Shown one piece after another: positions 50,380-57,544 of a stretch of 64,000 nucleotides of DNA (its first letter is position 1; every line of letters begins with the position of its first letter). A program made the translations under genes and the position numbers. Origin of the DNA: Acinetobacter sp. ANC 4169 (GTDB taxonomy: Bacteria > Pseudomonadota > Gammaproteobacteria > Pseudomonadales > Moraxellaceae). A model generated the notes under the pieces. That model searched no databases. It was given only the letters and a program-made list of their open reading frames with translations, and was not told the origin of the DNA. The DNA is taken from NCBI RefSeq assembly GCF_002135355.1, contig NZ_NEGE01000002.1:124001-188000 (forward strand), in the 5' to 3' direction.

Positions 50380-50697
50380 ATGAATACCGATCTTGAAATT
50401 GCTTCTATGCATGATGCTATTGATACCGTGGTCACGGTATTAAAATCATTAGCCAATCCAGATCGTTTACTTATTTTATGTTATCTCGCAAAACAAGAAT
50501 TGAATGTTTCACAAATAGAAGAGCTGACCCAAATTAATCAGCCCACCTTGTCCCAGCAGCTGATGATGTTACGTAAAAGTGATGTAGTGAGCACGCGTCG
50601 TGACGGCAAACAGATTTTTTATTCCATTAAAGATCAAAAACTGGTTCAGGTACTGAATACCCTCTATCAACTGTATTGTCCTAAAAATCTAATTTAA
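50380..50697 (+). CDS. ArsR/SmtB regulator of the BigR/YgaV sulfide-sensing type
   Basis: Winged-helix repressor of 105 residues. Recognition helix region: NVSQIEELTQINQPTLSQQLMMLR. Two Cys residues, Cys34 in LLILCYLA and Cys100 in QLYCP, fall where BigR, SqrR and YgaV have the pair that forms a tetrasulfide or disulfide on sulfide exposure; metal-site residues of classic ArsR are absent. No sulfide-oxidation gene is adjacent, unlike typical BigR loci. The imperfect palindrome TACAT-N7-ATGTA at 50348-50364 just upstream may be an autoregulatory operator. Confidence 0.8.
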   Translation: MNTDLEIASMHDAIDTVVTVLKSLANPDRLLILCYLAKQELNVSQIEELTQINQPTLSQQLMMLRKSDVVSTRRDGKQIFYSIKDQKLVQVLNTLYQLYCPKNLI

Positions 50698-50745
50698 TCA
50701 TACTTATACAATAGAATTGGGAAGATATTAAAATCTTTTGACATT

Positions 50746-50897
50746 TTATAGTGATAACCAGATAAAGATACAAGCTAAGGCAACAGTACTTTTATAGTTT
50801 TGCTTTAGCTTGTTATATTGGGTGGCAACAGCTCAAACTGTTTTAATCTTGCACATGCATTTTCCACTGAATGCCTGATTTTATATAAATACCCTTC
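50746..50897 (-). pseudogene. IS5-family transposase remnant (C-terminal end only)
   Basis: On the minus strand, translation gives YLYKIRHSVENACARLKQF, then, after a one-base deletion, ATQYNKLKQNYKSTVALA and the ending CIFIWLSL with a stop at 50746-50748. This is the typical C-terminus of IS5/IS427-group transposases. The N-terminal part, reading frame and inverted repeats are gone, so it is an old scar between the ArsR gene and the LOV phosphodiesterase gene. Confidence 0.8.
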
Positions 50898-50899
50898 TA

Positions 50900-51287
50900 T
50901 CTGGATATGACTTGATTTTCTATTCAATTTCTTTGCAATATTGACTATTACCGTTTAGAAAATAAGCACGGATTTTTCATGGCTCTGAACAGAACACCTG
51001 GTACTGTAAGTTTGTTATCCGGTTTTAAGAAGGTCAGATCGCTTTTGTTTTTAAGAAATAGTTCTACTTTCAATAGCTATTATTTTTAGAGGAATGAATA
51101 TTGATGCAAGTTGTTTAAGTCAACGCTTGAGATTCATCAAGATTTTCAGATAATTGTAGGTAAGTATAATCACATTTTTGTTATATTGTTTATATAAAAT
51201 TAATAATCAGTATATCGATCTGATTTCAAGTTTTTTGATTGAGAATCTATTAAAAATACGCGATACAACTCAAGGAAGGGATGCGAT
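50900..51287. other. Gene-free region upstream of the LOV phosphodiesterase gene
   Basis: About 390 A+T-rich bases with no gene seen. It adjoins the IS5 remnant and must contain the promoter of the next gene; an AAGGA lies 12 bases before its ATG. Confidence 0.45.
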
Positions 51288-53849
51288 ATGAGTCAAACAG
51301 CGAGTTATTTAGATACTCAATCTATCTTTAATTTAATTGGGCAACACGCTGACTTAACCCTCATCTTTCAAACTGTCAGTGAATGGCTAGAAGCCCGGAT
51401 ACCTGATTCAATGGTATCCATTATGTTGTACTCAGAGAGAGAACAAACTTTAAGCCTGATCAGTGGTACCCAACATTTTTCACCCCAATATCAAGAAGCG
51501 ATTAATGGTTTAGAAATAGGCCCAAATGTCGGTGCTTGTGGTGCAGCAGCTTTTCACCGAAAACTTGTGATTTGTGAAAATTTAGCCACTGACCAGAACT
51601 GGGAACCTTTCAGGACCTTGACTCAAGAGGAAAATCTGAACGCATGTTGGTCTACGCCTATTATTAATGCCCATGGAAAACTCTATGGTACCTTTGGGAC
51701 ATATTATCGTTCGCCTAAATGTCCCACACCGACTCATATTAAATTACTTCGTCATGCAGCATCTTTAATTGCCTTAAGTATGGATCTGCATGAAGAACGG
51801 CAACAAAGACTGGCTCTTCATGATAAATATCGCTCTTTCTTCACTTACCATCCGGACGCGATTTTTGAACATAATCTAGAAGGCATCGTGATTGATGTTA
51901 ATCTTGTCTCTGAAAAAATTACTAAATTCAATCTTGAACAGGCTCGGGGCTTACATTTCTCGAATTTTATTTGTGCTGAATTTCAATCTTTAGCGCAAAC
52001 TGCATTTGAACAAGCCTTAAAGGGAAACAGTCAGCACCTGGAAATTCAGGCACTGAATGCCGCAGGTGAATGTTACTGGTTAGACCTGACTTATTTACCC
52101 ATTCAACAAGCTCAACATGTGGTTGGCGTATTTGCAATCGCTCGTGATATTTCAGAACGGCGTGAAACTGAAGAAATGCTACGTCTACTTAAACGAAGTG
52201 TCGATGCTAATCCTCATGGAATTATATTGAGCAATGCCGCCCCAGATCAGGCCATTGAGTATGTTAATCCTGCGTTTGAATGCCTGACCGGTTATAAAAA
52301 AGAAGAAATTATTGGTAAAAATTGTCGTTTTCTGCAAGGTCCTGATACAGATCCTGAAGCAGTTAATAAAATACATAATGCGCTTAAAGAGCAACAAGAA
52401 ATCCAGATCACCTTAAAAAATTATCGTAAAGATGGGAGCTGGTTCTGGAACCAACTGATATTAGGACCGGTTTTTGATGACAAAAATTTCTGCACACATT
52501 TTATCGGAATTCAGCAGGATATTACTCAACAACGGGCAAATAGCGAATATATCGCCCGTCAACAAACCCACGACAGTTTAACCGGATTAATTAATCATCA
52601 TACCTTCGAAAAAATACTGGATGTCGCATTCCACATGCAACATGAGCATCATCACCCTCTGATCGTCATGTATGTTGATTTAGATGGTTTCCAGCCTTTA
52701 AATCAAAGTTTGGGACACCTCAGTGGTGATCAGCTCCTGATTGCTGTAGCAAATCGCCTGCGTCAGATCGTTCAAGAAGAGGATATCATTGCTCATTTTT
52801 CAGCAGATGAATTTGGCATACTGTTGAATAAATGCCATGATTTAAAACAGGCCGCGGTCATTGCAGAGCAAATATTAAGAAGCCTGTCAGTTCCATTTGA
52901 TATCGATGGCCATAAAATCCATATGAGCGCGAGTATTGGTATTGCAGATGATGGAACTCAAATAGAAAAATCTACCCAATTGCTTCATCATGCGATACAT
53001 GCGATGAATGAAGCCAAAAAAGAAGGTGGAAATGCCTGGCACTGGTATGCTTTTGACGCTATGTGCGCACCGAAAATCGATTATGTGCTTATGCGGCATG
53101 AATTAATGGTTGCTCTGGAAGAAAAACAGTTTAGGTTAGTCTATCAACCGGTTATTGATGCTCATTCAGGCCAGGTAAAAAGTGTAGAAGCCTTAATCCG
53201 TTGGCAGCATCCACAAAGAGGTTTTATCTCTCCAGCAGACTTCATTCCATTCGCCGAAAAAACCGGTCAAATTGTAGTCATTGGCCAATGGGTTTTACAG
53301 CAGGCCTGTCAGGATATTGTTGAATGGAATAAGAAAAATGGCGCTAGCCTGAGTGTAGCCGTCAATCTTTCTCCCTTACAGTTCAAGCGCACCGGCTTTT
53401 TGCATGAGTTAAAGGAAACTCTGACCACTACACAGTTACAGCCTGAATTATTAAAAATTGAAGTTACTGAAACCATGTTAATTGCAGGTGCTGACCGTTC
53501 TTTAGAAATTTTAATGGCGATTCGTGATTTGGGCATTAAAGTTTCTGTCGACGACTTTGGAACAGGATACTCCAGTCTGAGTTATTTACGTACTTTACCT
53601 GTTGATGAGATAAAACTTGATCGTAGTTTTATTGAAGATTTACCTAAAAATGAGAAAGATGGTGCTATTGTCGCAGCCATTATTGTCATGGCTCATCAAC
53701 TCGGATTACAAGTGGTCGCTGAAGGTGTAGAAACTCACGCCCAAGCCAAATTTCTCAGAGAATATGAATGTGATCATTTTCAAGGCTACTATTTTGCTAA
53801 ACCAGCTTCCCTTACAGAGCTCAAACTTCATTATAAGCCGGTAGAATAA
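51288..53849 (+). CDS. GAF-PAS-LOV-GGDEF-EAL protein: predicted blue-light-controlled c-di-GMP phosphodiesterase
   Basis: Cytoplasmic signalling protein of 853 residues. Order: GAF (about 15-165), PAS (about 180-290), LOV-type PAS (about 302-415), GGDEF (about 425-590), EAL (about 605-850). The LOV domain has GKNCRFLQG with photoactive Cys346, plus Asn378, Asn388 and Gln409/410 where LOV flavin contacts are expected. The GGDEF site is degenerate (SADEF at 505-509), so cyclase activity is unlikely. The EAL domain is intact: EALIRW, NLSPLQF, EVTET, DDFGTGYSS, KLDRSF, EGVET and QGYYFAKP. It should bind FMN, sense blue light and hydrolyse c-di-GMP. Convergent with a diguanylate cyclase gene 27 bases away. 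Confidence 0.9.
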   Translation: MSQTASYLDTQSIFNLIGQHADLTLIFQTVSEWLEARIPDSMVSIMLYSEREQTLSLISGTQHFSPQYQEAINGLEIGPNVGACGAAAFHRKLVICENLATDQNWEPFRTLTQEENLNACWSTPIINAHGKLYGTFGTYYRSPKCPTPTHIKLLRHAASLIALSMDLHEERQQRLALHDKYRSFFTYHPDAIFEHNLEGIVIDVNLVSEKITKFNLEQARGLHFSNFICAEFQSLAQTAFEQALKGNSQHLEIQALNAAGECYWLDLTYLPIQQAQHVVGVFAIARDISERRETEEMLRLLKRSVDANPHGIILSNAAPDQAIEYVNPAFECLTGYKKEEIIGKNCRFLQGPDTDPEAVNKIHNALKEQQEIQITLKNYRKDGSWFWNQLILGPVFDDKNFCTHFIGIQQDITQQRANSEYIARQQTHDSLTGLINHHTFEKILDVAFHMQHEHHHPLIVMYVDLDGFQPLNQSLGHLSGDQLLIAVANRLRQIVQEEDIIAHFSADEFGILLNKCHDLKQAAVIAEQILRSLSVPFDIDGHKIHMSASIGIADDGTQIEKSTQLLHHAIHAMNEAKKEGGNAWHWYAFDAMCAPKIDYVLMRHELMVALEEKQFRLVYQPVIDAHSGQVKSVEALIRWQHPQRGFISPADFIPFAEKTGQIVVIGQWVLQQACQDIVEWNKKNGASLSVAVNLSPLQFKRTGFLHELKETLTTTQLQPELLKIEVTETMLIAGADRSLEILMAIRDLGIKVSVDDFGTGYSSLSYLRTLPVDEIKLDRSFIEDLPKNEKDGAIVAAIIVMAHQLGLQVVAEGVETHAQAKFLREYECDHFQGYYFAKPASLTELKLHYKPVE

Positions 53850-53876
53850 GTAGAAAAATAAATACCGTTCCACTCT

Positions 53877-55442
53877 CTAATAACGAATACAGTTACGTCC
53901 GTTATTCTTGGCTTGATAAAGTTTATTATCAGCCATTTTAAAAACTTCGGTCACACTGTCTGAGCTTTTAGGCCAAAAGGCAATTCCAATAGATATTGTT
54001 ATTGGTCCAATAGAATTGATGTTGCTTGATTCCATTGTTTTTCTTAAACGCTCCGCAGCATTGTAAGCTACCTTAGGATCTAAAGTCGTCATTAATACAA
54101 TAAACTCTTCCCCTCCTATACGGCAACAAATGTCTCCATCTCTGAAGTTATGATTCATAAGACTGGCCAGGTTTTTTAAAACCATATCCCCCTGATCATG
54201 GCCATAGGTATCATTCACCTTTTTAAAAAAATCGATATCAATCGCAAGAACGGCAAAATCTCTCTCTAAACTCACTACTTCTTTTAAGAAGATTTGCATC
54301 CCCCGCCGATTATATAAACCTGTCAATGGATCGGTATTTACATGTTGACGCAATTCAGTAATCTTTTCACTGAATGCTTGTGAACTGAGCAGCAATGACG
54401 TTCTAAACTTTAAAACTTCAAAATACCAAGGATCAACCTGCTTGATTTTATCTTGAATGTCTGGCTGATTGAGCATACTGGCCATTTTTGCCAAGCTATT
54501 TAAAGGTGAAGAAATAAAGCGCGACATTCTCCAGACAATAAAAAATATAAACAAATAAAAAATTAAAATTCCCACTGAAACTTTTAAAAGAATCACATTG
54601 GCCTGCTTTAACAGCTCTTCGGTTGGTTGCTGGGAAACGACAATCCAGTTCGTACTCGGAATGTAGGCAAAACCTGCCAAATTTTCGACCCCCCGACTAT
54701 TGATTAGCCGGATATTCCCCATCCGTTTATGGACCATATAGTCCAGACCCGTATTATTGACAATTTTTTCGCCAATTCTAGTCGGATCGGGATGAAAAAT
54801 AATTCGATTATCCTGATCCATGACATACATATAACTTTTCTTAAAGTCATACTCGGTTGAAAGCATTTTCTGGATGAGATTATTTTTTTGTAAATAAATC
54901 GTGCCACCAATCATGCCCTGATAATTTTTATTTCGGTCATAAATGGGTTGGGACAGCATCACAACCAAATTATGTCGAACTGACCAATAGGGAGGAGAAA
55001 TATAAGTGGTTTTATACTTTAAAGATTCAATAATTCCCACTGATTTATATGAAATATGGGTACTCAAATTTAAACTTTGCGGTGCAAAAGAGATGATTCT
55101 TCTTTGCTTATCCACAATTAGTAAACTATTAAATTTGTTGGACTGATTTTTAAGACGCTTTGCTTCTTCTTGTATTAATTGAGGATTAGAAAAATTTTGT
55201 CCTAACAGGTCAGCACTATATTTTAGCTCTTTGAGCATATCATCGAAATGCTGATCTGCACTGTTGGCAACCTTTGAAGCATATTTGACATTCACTAAAA
55301 GTGAATTTTGAATGAGCTGGTCTTTAATCACATAATTGAGAATAAATACAGAAACAATAAACAAGCACGAAACACTGATAATAGTCGAAATCAGGATCAG
55401 TTTACGAAGATTTAATTTAAGTGCCAAAAGAATCTGTTTCAA
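53877..55442 (-). CDS. Membrane diguanylate cyclase with periplasmic Cache sensor
   Basis: Inner-membrane c-di-GMP synthase of 521 residues. Helix at about 15-37, periplasmic double-Cache-type sensor (about 40-285, with YISPPYWSVRHNLVVMLSQPI and MIGGTIYL), second helix at about 288-310, linker, and a GGDEF domain (about 370-521). Active site reads RIGGEEF; the inhibitory RxxD site is RDGD five residues before it, so product feedback is expected. Magnesium and substrate residues IDIDFFKKVNDTYGH are intact. Its end faces the end of the LOV phosphodiesterase gene. Ligand unknown; Cache sensors often bind amino or organic acids. Confidence 0.9.
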   Translation of the reverse strand: MKQILLALKLNLRKLILISTIISVSCLFIVSVFILNYVIKDQLIQNSLLVNVKYASKVANSADQHFDDMLKELKYSADLLGQNFSNPQLIQEEAKRLKNQSNKFNSLLIVDKQRRIISFAPQSLNLSTHISYKSVGIIESLKYKTTYISPPYWSVRHNLVVMLSQPIYDRNKNYQGMIGGTIYLQKNNLIQKMLSTEYDFKKSYMYVMDQDNRIIFHPDPTRIGEKIVNNTGLDYMVHKRMGNIRLINSRGVENLAGFAYIPSTNWIVVSQQPTEELLKQANVILLKVSVGILIFYLFIFFIVWRMSRFISSPLNSLAKMASMLNQPDIQDKIKQVDPWYFEVLKFRTSLLLSSQAFSEKITELRQHVNTDPLTGLYNRRGMQIFLKEVVSLERDFAVLAIDIDFFKKVNDTYGHDQGDMVLKNLASLMNHNFRDGDICCRIGGEEFIVLMTTLDPKVAYNAAERLRKTMESSNINSIGPITISIGIAFWPKSSDSVTEVFKMADNKLYQAKNNGRNCIRY

Positions 55443-55819
55443 AAACCTGACCCTGAAATAGTGTGACCATATTTACATTTTATAACATATTTATTGATAA
55501 AATTAACAAAGATTTAATCGTGAATTTTCATTTGAAGCGTGCCTAGACTATCGGAGCAAAGCTTTTTAAGTCAATGTCCTAATGACAAAATCATCATATA
55601 CGCCAGAACTCAAGGAATGCTCTGTGCGCTTACTTTTTAAATCCGAAAAAAGATCATCCTTTTATCTGGACTGAACTTGCTGCTAAATTTGGTTTGGCGA
55701 TTAAATTTTAAGTTCTCGCCATTTTTGCACAGTAAAGGTTATCAAGCCCTATCTTCCTGACAAGACTTCTTAGCACTTTTTGTGCATAATATATCTAAAA
55801 TAGTGATTTAGCTTTAGAT
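55443..55819. other. Gap holding IS3 scar and two promoters
   Basis: Apart from the transposase remnant at 55582-55711, no gene is seen. It must carry the diguanylate cyclase promoter (minus strand) and the SulP promoter (plus strand). Confidence 0.45.
55582..55711 (+). pseudogene. IS3-family transposase OrfA remnant with frameshift
   Basis: A short frame starts MTKSSYTPELKECSVRLLF and continues KSEK, then after one extra A the next frame gives DHPFIWTELAAKFGLAIKF and a stop. This is the N-terminal signature of IS3-family OrfA (YTPE-K--AVRLL--S--DHPS-W-A---IA-KFG). No OrfB or terminal repeats remain. It lies between the diguanylate cyclase and SulP genes. Confidence 0.75.
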
Positions 55820-57544
55820 ATGTCAGATTTTAATGCCCGCTTAAGCTCGTTATTGCCCGCATGGCAATGGCTGCGTCAATATACCCCAGCCAAATTTAAA
55901 TCTGACCTTCTTTCGGCCCTGATTGTCATCGCCATGCTGGTTCCGCAAGGCATGGCCTATGCCATGCTGGCTGGACTACCGCCTATTATGGGGCTGTATG
56001 CCAGTATTCTACCCATGATCATTTATGCCATGGTGGGGAGCAGCCCGACGCTTTCGATTGGCCCGGTCGCGATTATTTCCATGATGACCTTCGCGACGCT
56101 GAATCCCTTGTTTGAGGTTGGCTCTCCAGTTTATATACAGGCCGCCTGTCTGCTGGCAGTGATGGTTGGTATTATCTCTTTATTGCTCGGGATTTTCCGA
56201 TTCGGCTTTCTGATTCAGCTGATTAGCCATCCGGTGATCAAGAGTTTTATTATTGCCTCTGCCTTGCTGATTGCTTTAGGCCAGTTTAAATTTTTAGTCG
56301 ATATCCCGTTAAAAGCCAATAATCTTCCTGAATTTTTTCTAAGTGCCTGGCAGTACCTGCGTTATAGCCATATCGAAAGCTTCATTTTCGGGCTGCTTGC
56401 CTTAGTATTTCTGATTTATCTTCCCAGAGTTTTAAATTCCAATGCCATTCAAAGCCGGGTCGGTTCAACTGCTTTTATTGTTAAAGCCTTGCCTTTGGCC
56501 TTGGTGGTGATTTCGATTGCCGCGGTGTACTTTCTGGATTTAAAAGCGGTAGGCATTAAAACCGTAGGTGAAATCCCTTCAGGTTTTCCACCCATCAGCA
56601 TGCCCTACTGGAATATGGAACTGATCATCACCTTATTCCCCGGTGCAGCCATGATCGCCATGATTAGCTTTGTCGAGTCTTTATCTATTGCTCAGGCGAC
56701 GGCATTACAGCAACGCAGTCATTTAAATAGTAACCAGGAACTGATCGCGTTGGGTTTATCCAATTTAAGCGCGGGCTTAAGTTCGGCATTTCCGGTTACC
56801 GGTAGCTTATCGCGCACGGTGGTGAATGCGGATGCCGGTGCTAAAACACCGCTGGCAGGCGTGATATCCTCATTATTTATAGTCTTGGTTAGCCTCTATT
56901 TCACGGCTTTTTTCCGTGATTTGCCTTTGGCTATTCTGGCTGCAACCATTATTGTTTCAATCTGGAAACTGGTCGATTTCAAGCCCTTTATAGACACCTG
57001 GCGTTATTCCAAAGCAGATGGCATTGCAATGTGGATCACCTTCTTTGGCGTGCTGTGCATAGATATTTCGACCGGTTTGATACTGGGTATTGTCTCAACC
57101 TTTATTCTGCTGTTGTGGCGGATCAGCCGTCCGCATATTGCCGTGATTGGCCTGGTAGAAGGCACCCAGCATTTTAGAAATGTACAACGCCATGATGTAC
57201 TCACATCAAATAAAGTTCTGTCCATGCGTATAGATGAGAATCTGACCTTTTTAAATGCCAATACTTTTAAAGGTTTCCTGATTAATGCTGTGAGTCAGTA
57301 TGCTGATTTAGAGCATGTGGTCATTAACTGCTCCAGTATTAGTGCCATTGACCTGAGTGCGCTGGAAATGCTGGAAGATCTCAATGCCGAGTTAAATAAA
57401 CTGGAGATTAAACTGAATTTCTCCGAAATTAAGGGTCCAGTCATGGATAAATTACAGCATTCAAAACTGCTGAATCAGTTAAGTGGCCAGATTTATCTGA
57501 CTCATTTTCAGGCCATGCAAGAACTTTCACCAGAAGTCTTTTAA
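55820..57544 (+). CDS. SulP-family anion transporter with STAS domain
   Basis: Inner-membrane permease of 574 residues: about 12-14 helices with the family start AWQWLRQYTPAKFKSDLLSA, LVPQGMAYAMLAGLPPIMGLYASILP and the FPVTGSLSRTVVNADAGAKTPLAG motif, followed by a cytoplasmic STAS domain (about 435-560, INCSSISAIDLSALEML). SulP proteins carry sulfate, bicarbonate or C4-dicarboxylates; the substrate cannot be told here. The ribosome-binding site is weak. Monocistronic. Confidence 0.87.
   Translation: MSDFNARLSSLLPAWQWLRQYTPAKFKSDLLSALIVIAMLVPQGMAYAMLAGLPPIMGLYASILPMIIYAMVGSSPTLSIGPVAIISMMTFATLNPLFEVGSPVYIQAACLLAVMVGIISLLLGIFRFGFLIQLISHPVIKSFIIASALLIALGQFKFLVDIPLKANNLPEFFLSAWQYLRYSHIESFIFGLLALVFLIYLPRVLNSNAIQSRVGSTAFIVKALPLALVVISIAAVYFLDLKAVGIKTVGEIPSGFPPISMPYWNMELIITLFPGAAMIAMISFVESLSIAQATALQQRSHLNSNQELIALGLSNLSAGLSSAFPVTGSLSRTVVNADAGAKTPLAGVISSLFIVLVSLYFTAFFRDLPLAILAATIIVSIWKLVDFKPFIDTWRYSKADGIAMWITFFGVLCIDISTGLILGIVSTFILLLWRISRPHIAVIGLVEGTQHFRNVQRHDVLTSNKVLSMRIDENLTFLNANTFKGFLINAVSQYADLEHVVINCSSISAIDLSALEMLEDLNAELNKLEIKLNFSEIKGPVMDKLQHSKLLNQLSGQIYLTHFQAMQELSPEVF

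Follow-up and report, generated by a model that had tools for sequence, protein, structure and literature searches.

Can blue light reach cyclic di-GMP (c-di-GMP) directly in Acinetobacter, through a photoreceptor domain that carries its own enzyme, and does such an enzyme stand alone? The question is raised by a gene in the window, the 64,000-nucleotide stretch of DNA analysed here (Acinetobacter sp. ANC 4169, contig NZ_NEGE01000002.1, positions 124,001 to 188,000). The gene lies on the + strand at 51288-53849, as the initial annotation had it, and is an open reading frame for 853 amino acids with an ATG start and a purine-rich stretch directly upstream. Pfam divides the product, a probable LOV-type c-di-GMP phosphodiesterase, into GAF, PAS, LOV, GGDEF and EAL domains. 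The GAF domain, already placed upstream of the LOV domain in the initial annotation, covers residues 21-165 (51348-51782, +; GAF_2, PF13185, E 4.1e-16) and is followed by a first PAS domain at residues 189-293 (51852-52166, +; PAS_4, PF08448). Two cysteines of the GAF domain are common among the 39 full-length copies described below, Cys84 in 34 and Cys120 in all 39, and a redox or ligand role is possible. When the GAF domain was searched against solved structures, the best matches were hemoglobins at E 0.08 or worse, which were taken as chance. Among the 25 of 43 NCBIfam matches listed for the whole protein no equivalog cut-off was reached, and the score against the blue-light receptor model YtvA_fam was 146 bits, below its curated cut-off of 250. 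A promoter and terminator scan gave counts near those of shuffled sequence (22 against 18.1 promoters, 2 against 3.9 terminators).

The LOV domain (residues 309-414; 52212-52529, +) was recognised as PAS_9 (PF13426) with an E value of 1.6e-36 that applies to the whole protein, by alignment to YtvA (2mwg), and by an AlphaFold2 model searched with Foldseek. Residues 343-351 read GKNCRFLQG, in which Cys346 occupies the adduct-forming cysteine position of the GxNCRFLQ motif. Counted along the 2mwg alignment, Cys346, Asn378, Asn388 and Gln409 fall on YtvA residues 62, 94, 104 and 123, the last three being the flavin-ring Asn, Asn and Gln. Reading the sequence gave the same motif, cysteine and asparagines as had been named before; for the glutamine, which had been left at 409 or 410, the pocket residue is 409, whereas 410 is Glu in several copies. 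Among the matches listed, the LOV stretch reached solved LOV proteins with E values down to 4.9e-31 (158 distinct PDB sequences matched at E<=0.001, of which the best 60 were listed).

The AlphaFold2 model of the LOV region, built from eight sequences, had a mean pLDDT of 80.5, the five models ranging from 80.5 to 44.4. LOV structures came first in Foldseek (9vf7 best, E 1e-14, 40% identity), but in a slower fold comparison the LOV-activated cyclase 8c05 (Z 17.2), the non-LOV PAS domain 4hp4 (Z 17.3) and 9vf7 (VIA, Z 17.7) scored nearly alike, so that LOV and other PAS domains cannot be told apart by fold alone. A chance or mis-called LOV domain was ruled out by the Pfam domains, the sequence matches to LOV structures and the Foldseek result.

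A linker of 21 residues, from D411 to L431 (52518-52580, +), connects the LOV and GGDEF domains if it is counted from the Asp of D(I/V)(T/S) to the Leu of DxLT, as defined in the excerpted text of PMC10396304. The same excerpts assign 21 residues to a short-linker class and also to earlier LOV-GGDEF-EAL systems and constructs derived from them, citing the SL2 paper, and call light regulation of the EAL domain plausible in those systems. The GGDEF domain (residues 427-582; 52566-53033, +; PF00990) is degenerate. Its GG(D/E)EF motif reads SADEF at residues 505-509, confirming the initial reading, and the RxxD inhibitory site, which is common in GGDEF cyclases and not essential, is absent and reads QEED. 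Judging from these motifs the domain is probably catalytically dead. The EAL domain (residues 605-839; 53100-53804, +; PF00563, E 4.9e-81) contains E634, N693, E725, E728, D755, D756, K776, E812 and Q832, nine catalytic positions, and the earlier claim of intact EAL motifs thus stood at every position checked. A full-length AlphaFold2 model (pLDDT 74.9, pTM 0.41) had low confidence between domains and says little on their coupling.

To place the protein in its family we used a sample of 175 Acinetobacter genomes, all of which have some match to it at E<=0.001. Full-length relatives of at least 49% identity occur in 35 of them, four of which hold two, giving 39 copies. Residue counts refer to all 39 and leave out a 328-aa fragment, a decayed copy comprising only about residues 534-853 (L103/L068; G075:C23). 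Cys346 is kept in 37 copies (Trp in L064, Tyr in L067), Gln409 in 38, Asn388 in 36 and Gln350 in 34. Asn378 is kept in 27 and replaced in 12, and Arg347, which adjoins the cysteine, is kept in 22 and replaced in 17; because these two residues are often replaced, some members of the family may have an altered photochemistry or none. All 39 copies keep the nine EAL positions. The second glycine of the GGDEF motif is kept in 17 copies (16 with [S/A/T]GDEF, one with AGGEF) and lost in 22, and RxxD is kept in three. The initial description of a dead cyclase domain therefore suits this protein, but it does not extend to the family, where those 16 copies keep [S/A/T]GDEF. As far as residues can tell, the phosphodiesterase site is fully held and the cysteine nearly fully, and the cyclase motif is decayed in several lines. 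Many of the 39 rows are close relatives; in a reduced set of 26 rows less than 93% identical to one another, the majority fraction at the cysteine was 0.92, compared to a mean of 0.72 over residues 305-415.

The exact LOV motif was found at 18 places in 15 of the 175 genomes, against one place for a reversed control pattern; it misses diverged copies and was not used for counting. Three of the places lie outside the family copies (G012 C1, G092 C9 and G103 C1). Across the order, the GAF-PAS-LOV part matched at E<=1e-40 in 19 of 293 genomes; Acinetobacter accounts for two of these, one being the genome of the window. In two other families, three copies (L073-L075) show the GAF-PAS-LOV-GGDEF-EAL arrangement in open reading frames of 862-902 aa with the cysteine present, and the arrangement is therefore not confined to Acinetobacter.

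The cysteine is missing from two of the 39 genome copies and from one of the three plasmid copies that were read. Since these copies keep the EAL residues, the enzyme could be retained without canonical photochemistry, and they are ready natural comparison proteins for what photochemistry contributes. One of them, the second copy of A. brisouii G012 (L064), has Trp at the cysteine site, and another, on the A. soli plasmid pA0075 (L117, 6986-9535), has Tyr; both keep the Asn, Asn and Gln. The third (L067, G115:C7:2673070-2675601) sits on a long branch. Its pocket has Tyr for the cysteine, Lys and Cys for the two asparagines and Ile for the glutamine, and its GGDEF motif reads IEDKF, but the nine EAL positions are kept. 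Its sequence suggests that it is likely a light-blind phosphodiesterase derivative.

The LOV gene does not stand alone. It forms half of a recurring convergent pair with a cyclase gene, a neighbourhood that the initial annotation overlooked. The partner, 27 nt away on the opposite strand (53877-55442, -; Pfam, sequence motifs), encodes a dCache_1-GGDEF diguanylate cyclase of 521 aa. Its GG(D/E)EF and RxxD motifs are intact and read GGEEF and RDGD (RDGDICCRIGGEEF), so that this protein is likely an active cyclase with a periplasmic sensor. Full-length cyclase matches of at least 85% identity occur in eight of the 175 genomes, in all eight convergent with a LOV gene match at a distance of 30-39 nt, and the pair is found in at least three different surroundings. 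Among more distant cyclases, a split 73% copy adjoins the LOV gene in G036 and a 54% copy is convergent with it in G146. Other cases speak against a fixed pairing. In G133 and G170 a relative of 42-49% precedes the LOV gene in the same orientation and so does not converge with it. A cyclase match at E<=1e-100 was counted in 63 genomes, of which 28 have a full-length LOV gene and 35 lack one. In the flanks read around the LOV gene, no cyclase relative reached the cut-off in G117, G163, G162, G046, G079, G056, G115 and G043 (38% identity, 60 aa) or in those of L045-L053 and L070 (40%, 60 aa), and the contig of G011 ends too near the LOV gene to judge pairing. At L039-L042 and L044 the pair is followed by a malic enzyme gene and a ferritin-like gene (called by Pfam on L039 and L044 and by similarity on the remainder), a setting unlike the window's. 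Within a few kb of the pair, L039 and L040 have another dCache-GGDEF cyclase that is 55-58% identical.

In the window the pair sits in an insertion of about 5 kb with IS remnants near both edges. A distance of 5,125 nt separates an ArsR-like gene (50380) from a SulP gene (55820) in the window and likewise in its sister, Acinetobacter sp. ANC 3903 (G108), compared to 104-112 nt in 10/10 other genomes with an ArsR match of at least 87%. In the seven empty ArsR-SulP sites that were read, alignment with the window stops at 50694-50726 on the left side and resumes at 55751-55762 on the right side; by these alignments the missing segment extends approximately over 50727-55750. Its core (51106-55510) is shared as one block with A. 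kookii (G042, 86%), where it occupies another site, and, apart from 6 nt, with plasmid CP085288.1 (84%). The left-edge remnant (50747-50942) resembles IS5-family (ISAba31) transposase genes at about 74% in the plasmid matches listed, and the right-edge remnant (55530-55673) is about 70% like regions mostly annotated as IS3-family transposase in the best 8 of 21 plasmid records. A clear target-site duplication was not seen among the repeats in 50640-56000.

Plasmid p4 of A. haemolyticus w12 (CP085288.1), mobilizable according to its PLSDB typing, carries the whole pair with the pocket and EAL residues intact, the two proteins being 82% and 88% identical to those of the window. Contigs of G102 and G126 have the pair close to a Rep gene that resembles the one on p4 at 93-94%, and the G102 Rep gene encodes Rep3 domains. 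Five further plasmid records contain LOV relatives at a greater distance, 53-55% identical over the sensor part, four from A. soli and one from A. johnsonii. Two of the five were read; the A. johnsonii copy keeps the cysteine and the A. soli copy has Tyr. A truncated cyclase (L105, G086:C8; residues 1-404, 89%) was also found near a Rep gene, in a region 94% identical to p4 over 5.3 kb and in a genome without the LOV gene, and looks like a cassette that lost it. Phage carriage was rejected, as none of the 56 matching phage records covers 80% of the LOV phosphodiesterase. Searches of open-access papers gave us no account of a mobile LOV-cyclase pair.

Three other readings of the locus have to be weighed. 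The LOV domain may bind flavin and yet chiefly report redox state or oxygen to the EAL domain, light being incidental. A precedent is RmcA of Pseudomonas aeruginosa, a GGDEF-EAL phosphodiesterase controlled by a LOV-like PAS domain, for which a redox route is proposed in the excerpts of PMC8846402; the persistence of Cys-less copies with intact EAL residues would fit as well. The RmcA domain, however, has no cysteine according to the same excerpts, whereas here, across a family diverged to about 49% identity, the cysteine is present in 37 of the 39 copies, and its majority in the 26 less similar rows stands well above the mean of the domain. A redox role in place of light sensing thus appears unlikely to us. 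Nor do we expect the GGDEF domain still to make c-di-GMP, which would turn the protein into a light-switched bifunctional enzyme. Its residues D464, N472, D481, D507 and E508, which belong to the metal and GTP sites, are retained here, and each of them is found in 34 to 39 of the 39 copies, and the 16 copies with [S/A/T]GDEF also speak for such activity. But in this protein Ala replaces the second Gly and the RxxD site is lost, and an earlier LOV-GGDEF construct without the conserved GGDEF residues cannot be a cyclase (PMC10396304, in excerpts), which makes a bifunctional enzyme highly improbable.

The pairing itself could be an accident of a shared mobile block in which the two enzymes answer unrelated signals, given that the malic enzyme and ferritin-like genes are likewise found repeatedly next to it in some species, that the LOV gene occurs in several species with no cyclase at its side, and that many species hold a relative of the cyclase but no LOV gene. 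Such an accident would have to accommodate the convergent 30-39 nt spacing shared by 8/8 close copies of the cyclase, whose surroundings are of at least three kinds, and the convergent orientation also of the 54% identical cyclase in G146; we regard it as a real possibility, if a somewhat improbable one. The opposite reading, that the pair is a transferable two-gene module installing a light-gated c-di-GMP node, with synthesis on a periplasmic cue and removal in blue light, is put forward tentatively, as we lean slightly against it in this full form.

We consider it probable that the gene encodes a LOV phosphodiesterase in which Cys346 and a flavin would act as a light switch of the EAL domain, and which would form a make-and-break node with the dCache cyclase. 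The protein would be soluble, would bind flavin and would probably be a dimer. Under blue light Cys346 would form an adduct with the flavin of the LOV domain, and the resulting change would reach the EAL domain by way of the helical linker and of a GGDEF domain that is dead as a catalyst but may bind GTP. Hydrolysis of c-di-GMP would thereby be altered, most likely raised in the light as reported for SL2; we infer activation because of the 21-residue linker and of the hydrolysis by SL2 in its blue-light state. It is likely that blue light would switch the enzyme to destroy c-di-GMP, a biofilm messenger. The GAF and first PAS domains may add other inputs. The cyclase would make c-di-GMP on a periplasmic signal and may oppose the phosphodiesterase in the cell, the node being exchanged between Acinetobacter chromosomes and plasmids. 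The LOV phosphodiesterase would give blue light a direct route to c-di-GMP and, if the pair is such a transferable module, its presence on plasmids would mean that Acinetobacter can acquire a light response horizontally. The occurrence of the gene with a cyclase on a plasmid points to light control of biofilm and motility as something that can be gained, moved and lost.

Blue-light responses in Acinetobacter have mostly been ascribed to BLUF proteins acting via protein contacts (excerpts of PMC8508746 and PMC3554667). BlsA, which PMC8508746 discusses for A. baumannii, and the other BLUF proteins of the genus feed blue light into motility and biofilm; they are short and have no output domain (PMC3554667, in excerpts), whereas the LOV domain here comes with its own enzyme. 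The BfmRS two-component system has also been reported in the blue-light response at 37 C (PMC9814549). The word LOV does not occur in the main text of PMC3554667, and LOV, light, PAS, GAF and photoreceptor do not occur as whole words in PMC13243610. The window's genome also has one BLUF protein (G000:C30:159172-159453, 174-aa open frame), and LOV and BLUF inputs may coexist. That the phosphodiesterase is LOV-type and separate from BLUF, with a probably dead cyclase domain, as initially proposed, is supported by sequence, conservation and predicted fold. Neither the kind of protein nor, for the genus, its domain arrangement is new, as SL2, a light-activated LOV-GGDEF-EAL phosphodiesterase, is published and Table 2 of a 2021 review (PMC8508746, in excerpts) contains EXF56192.1 of 'Acinetobacter baumannii 1294596', a GAF+PAS+LOV+GGDEF+EAL protein (printed GGDEAL) of 855 aa. 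Compared by this table entry, which gives no function, it has the same domain order and nearly the same length as the protein described here.

SL2 of Synechococcus elongatus is a blue-light-sensitive LOV-GGDEF-EAL phosphodiesterase with a Cys-flavin bond, which hydrolyses c-di-GMP in its active, blue-light state (excerpts of PMC8846402). The LOV, GGDEF and EAL domains are common to both proteins, compared by description, and the linker here has the length given for earlier LOV-GGDEF-EAL systems. Unlike in SL2, a GAF and an extra PAS domain precede the LOV domain here, and a cyclase gene adjoins. LadC (structure 8c05) likewise connects LOV to GGDEF, through a coiled-coil linker (PMC10396304, in excerpts), and matches the LOV model as given above, but it makes c-di-GMP and has no EAL domain, whereas the GGDEF motif here is degenerate. 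The LOV-GGDEF-EAL phosphodiesterase design is thus already known, and it is the mobile partnership with a cyclase that is unusual: a known design occurs here, on chromosomes and on a plasmid, beside an enzyme that probably makes c-di-GMP.
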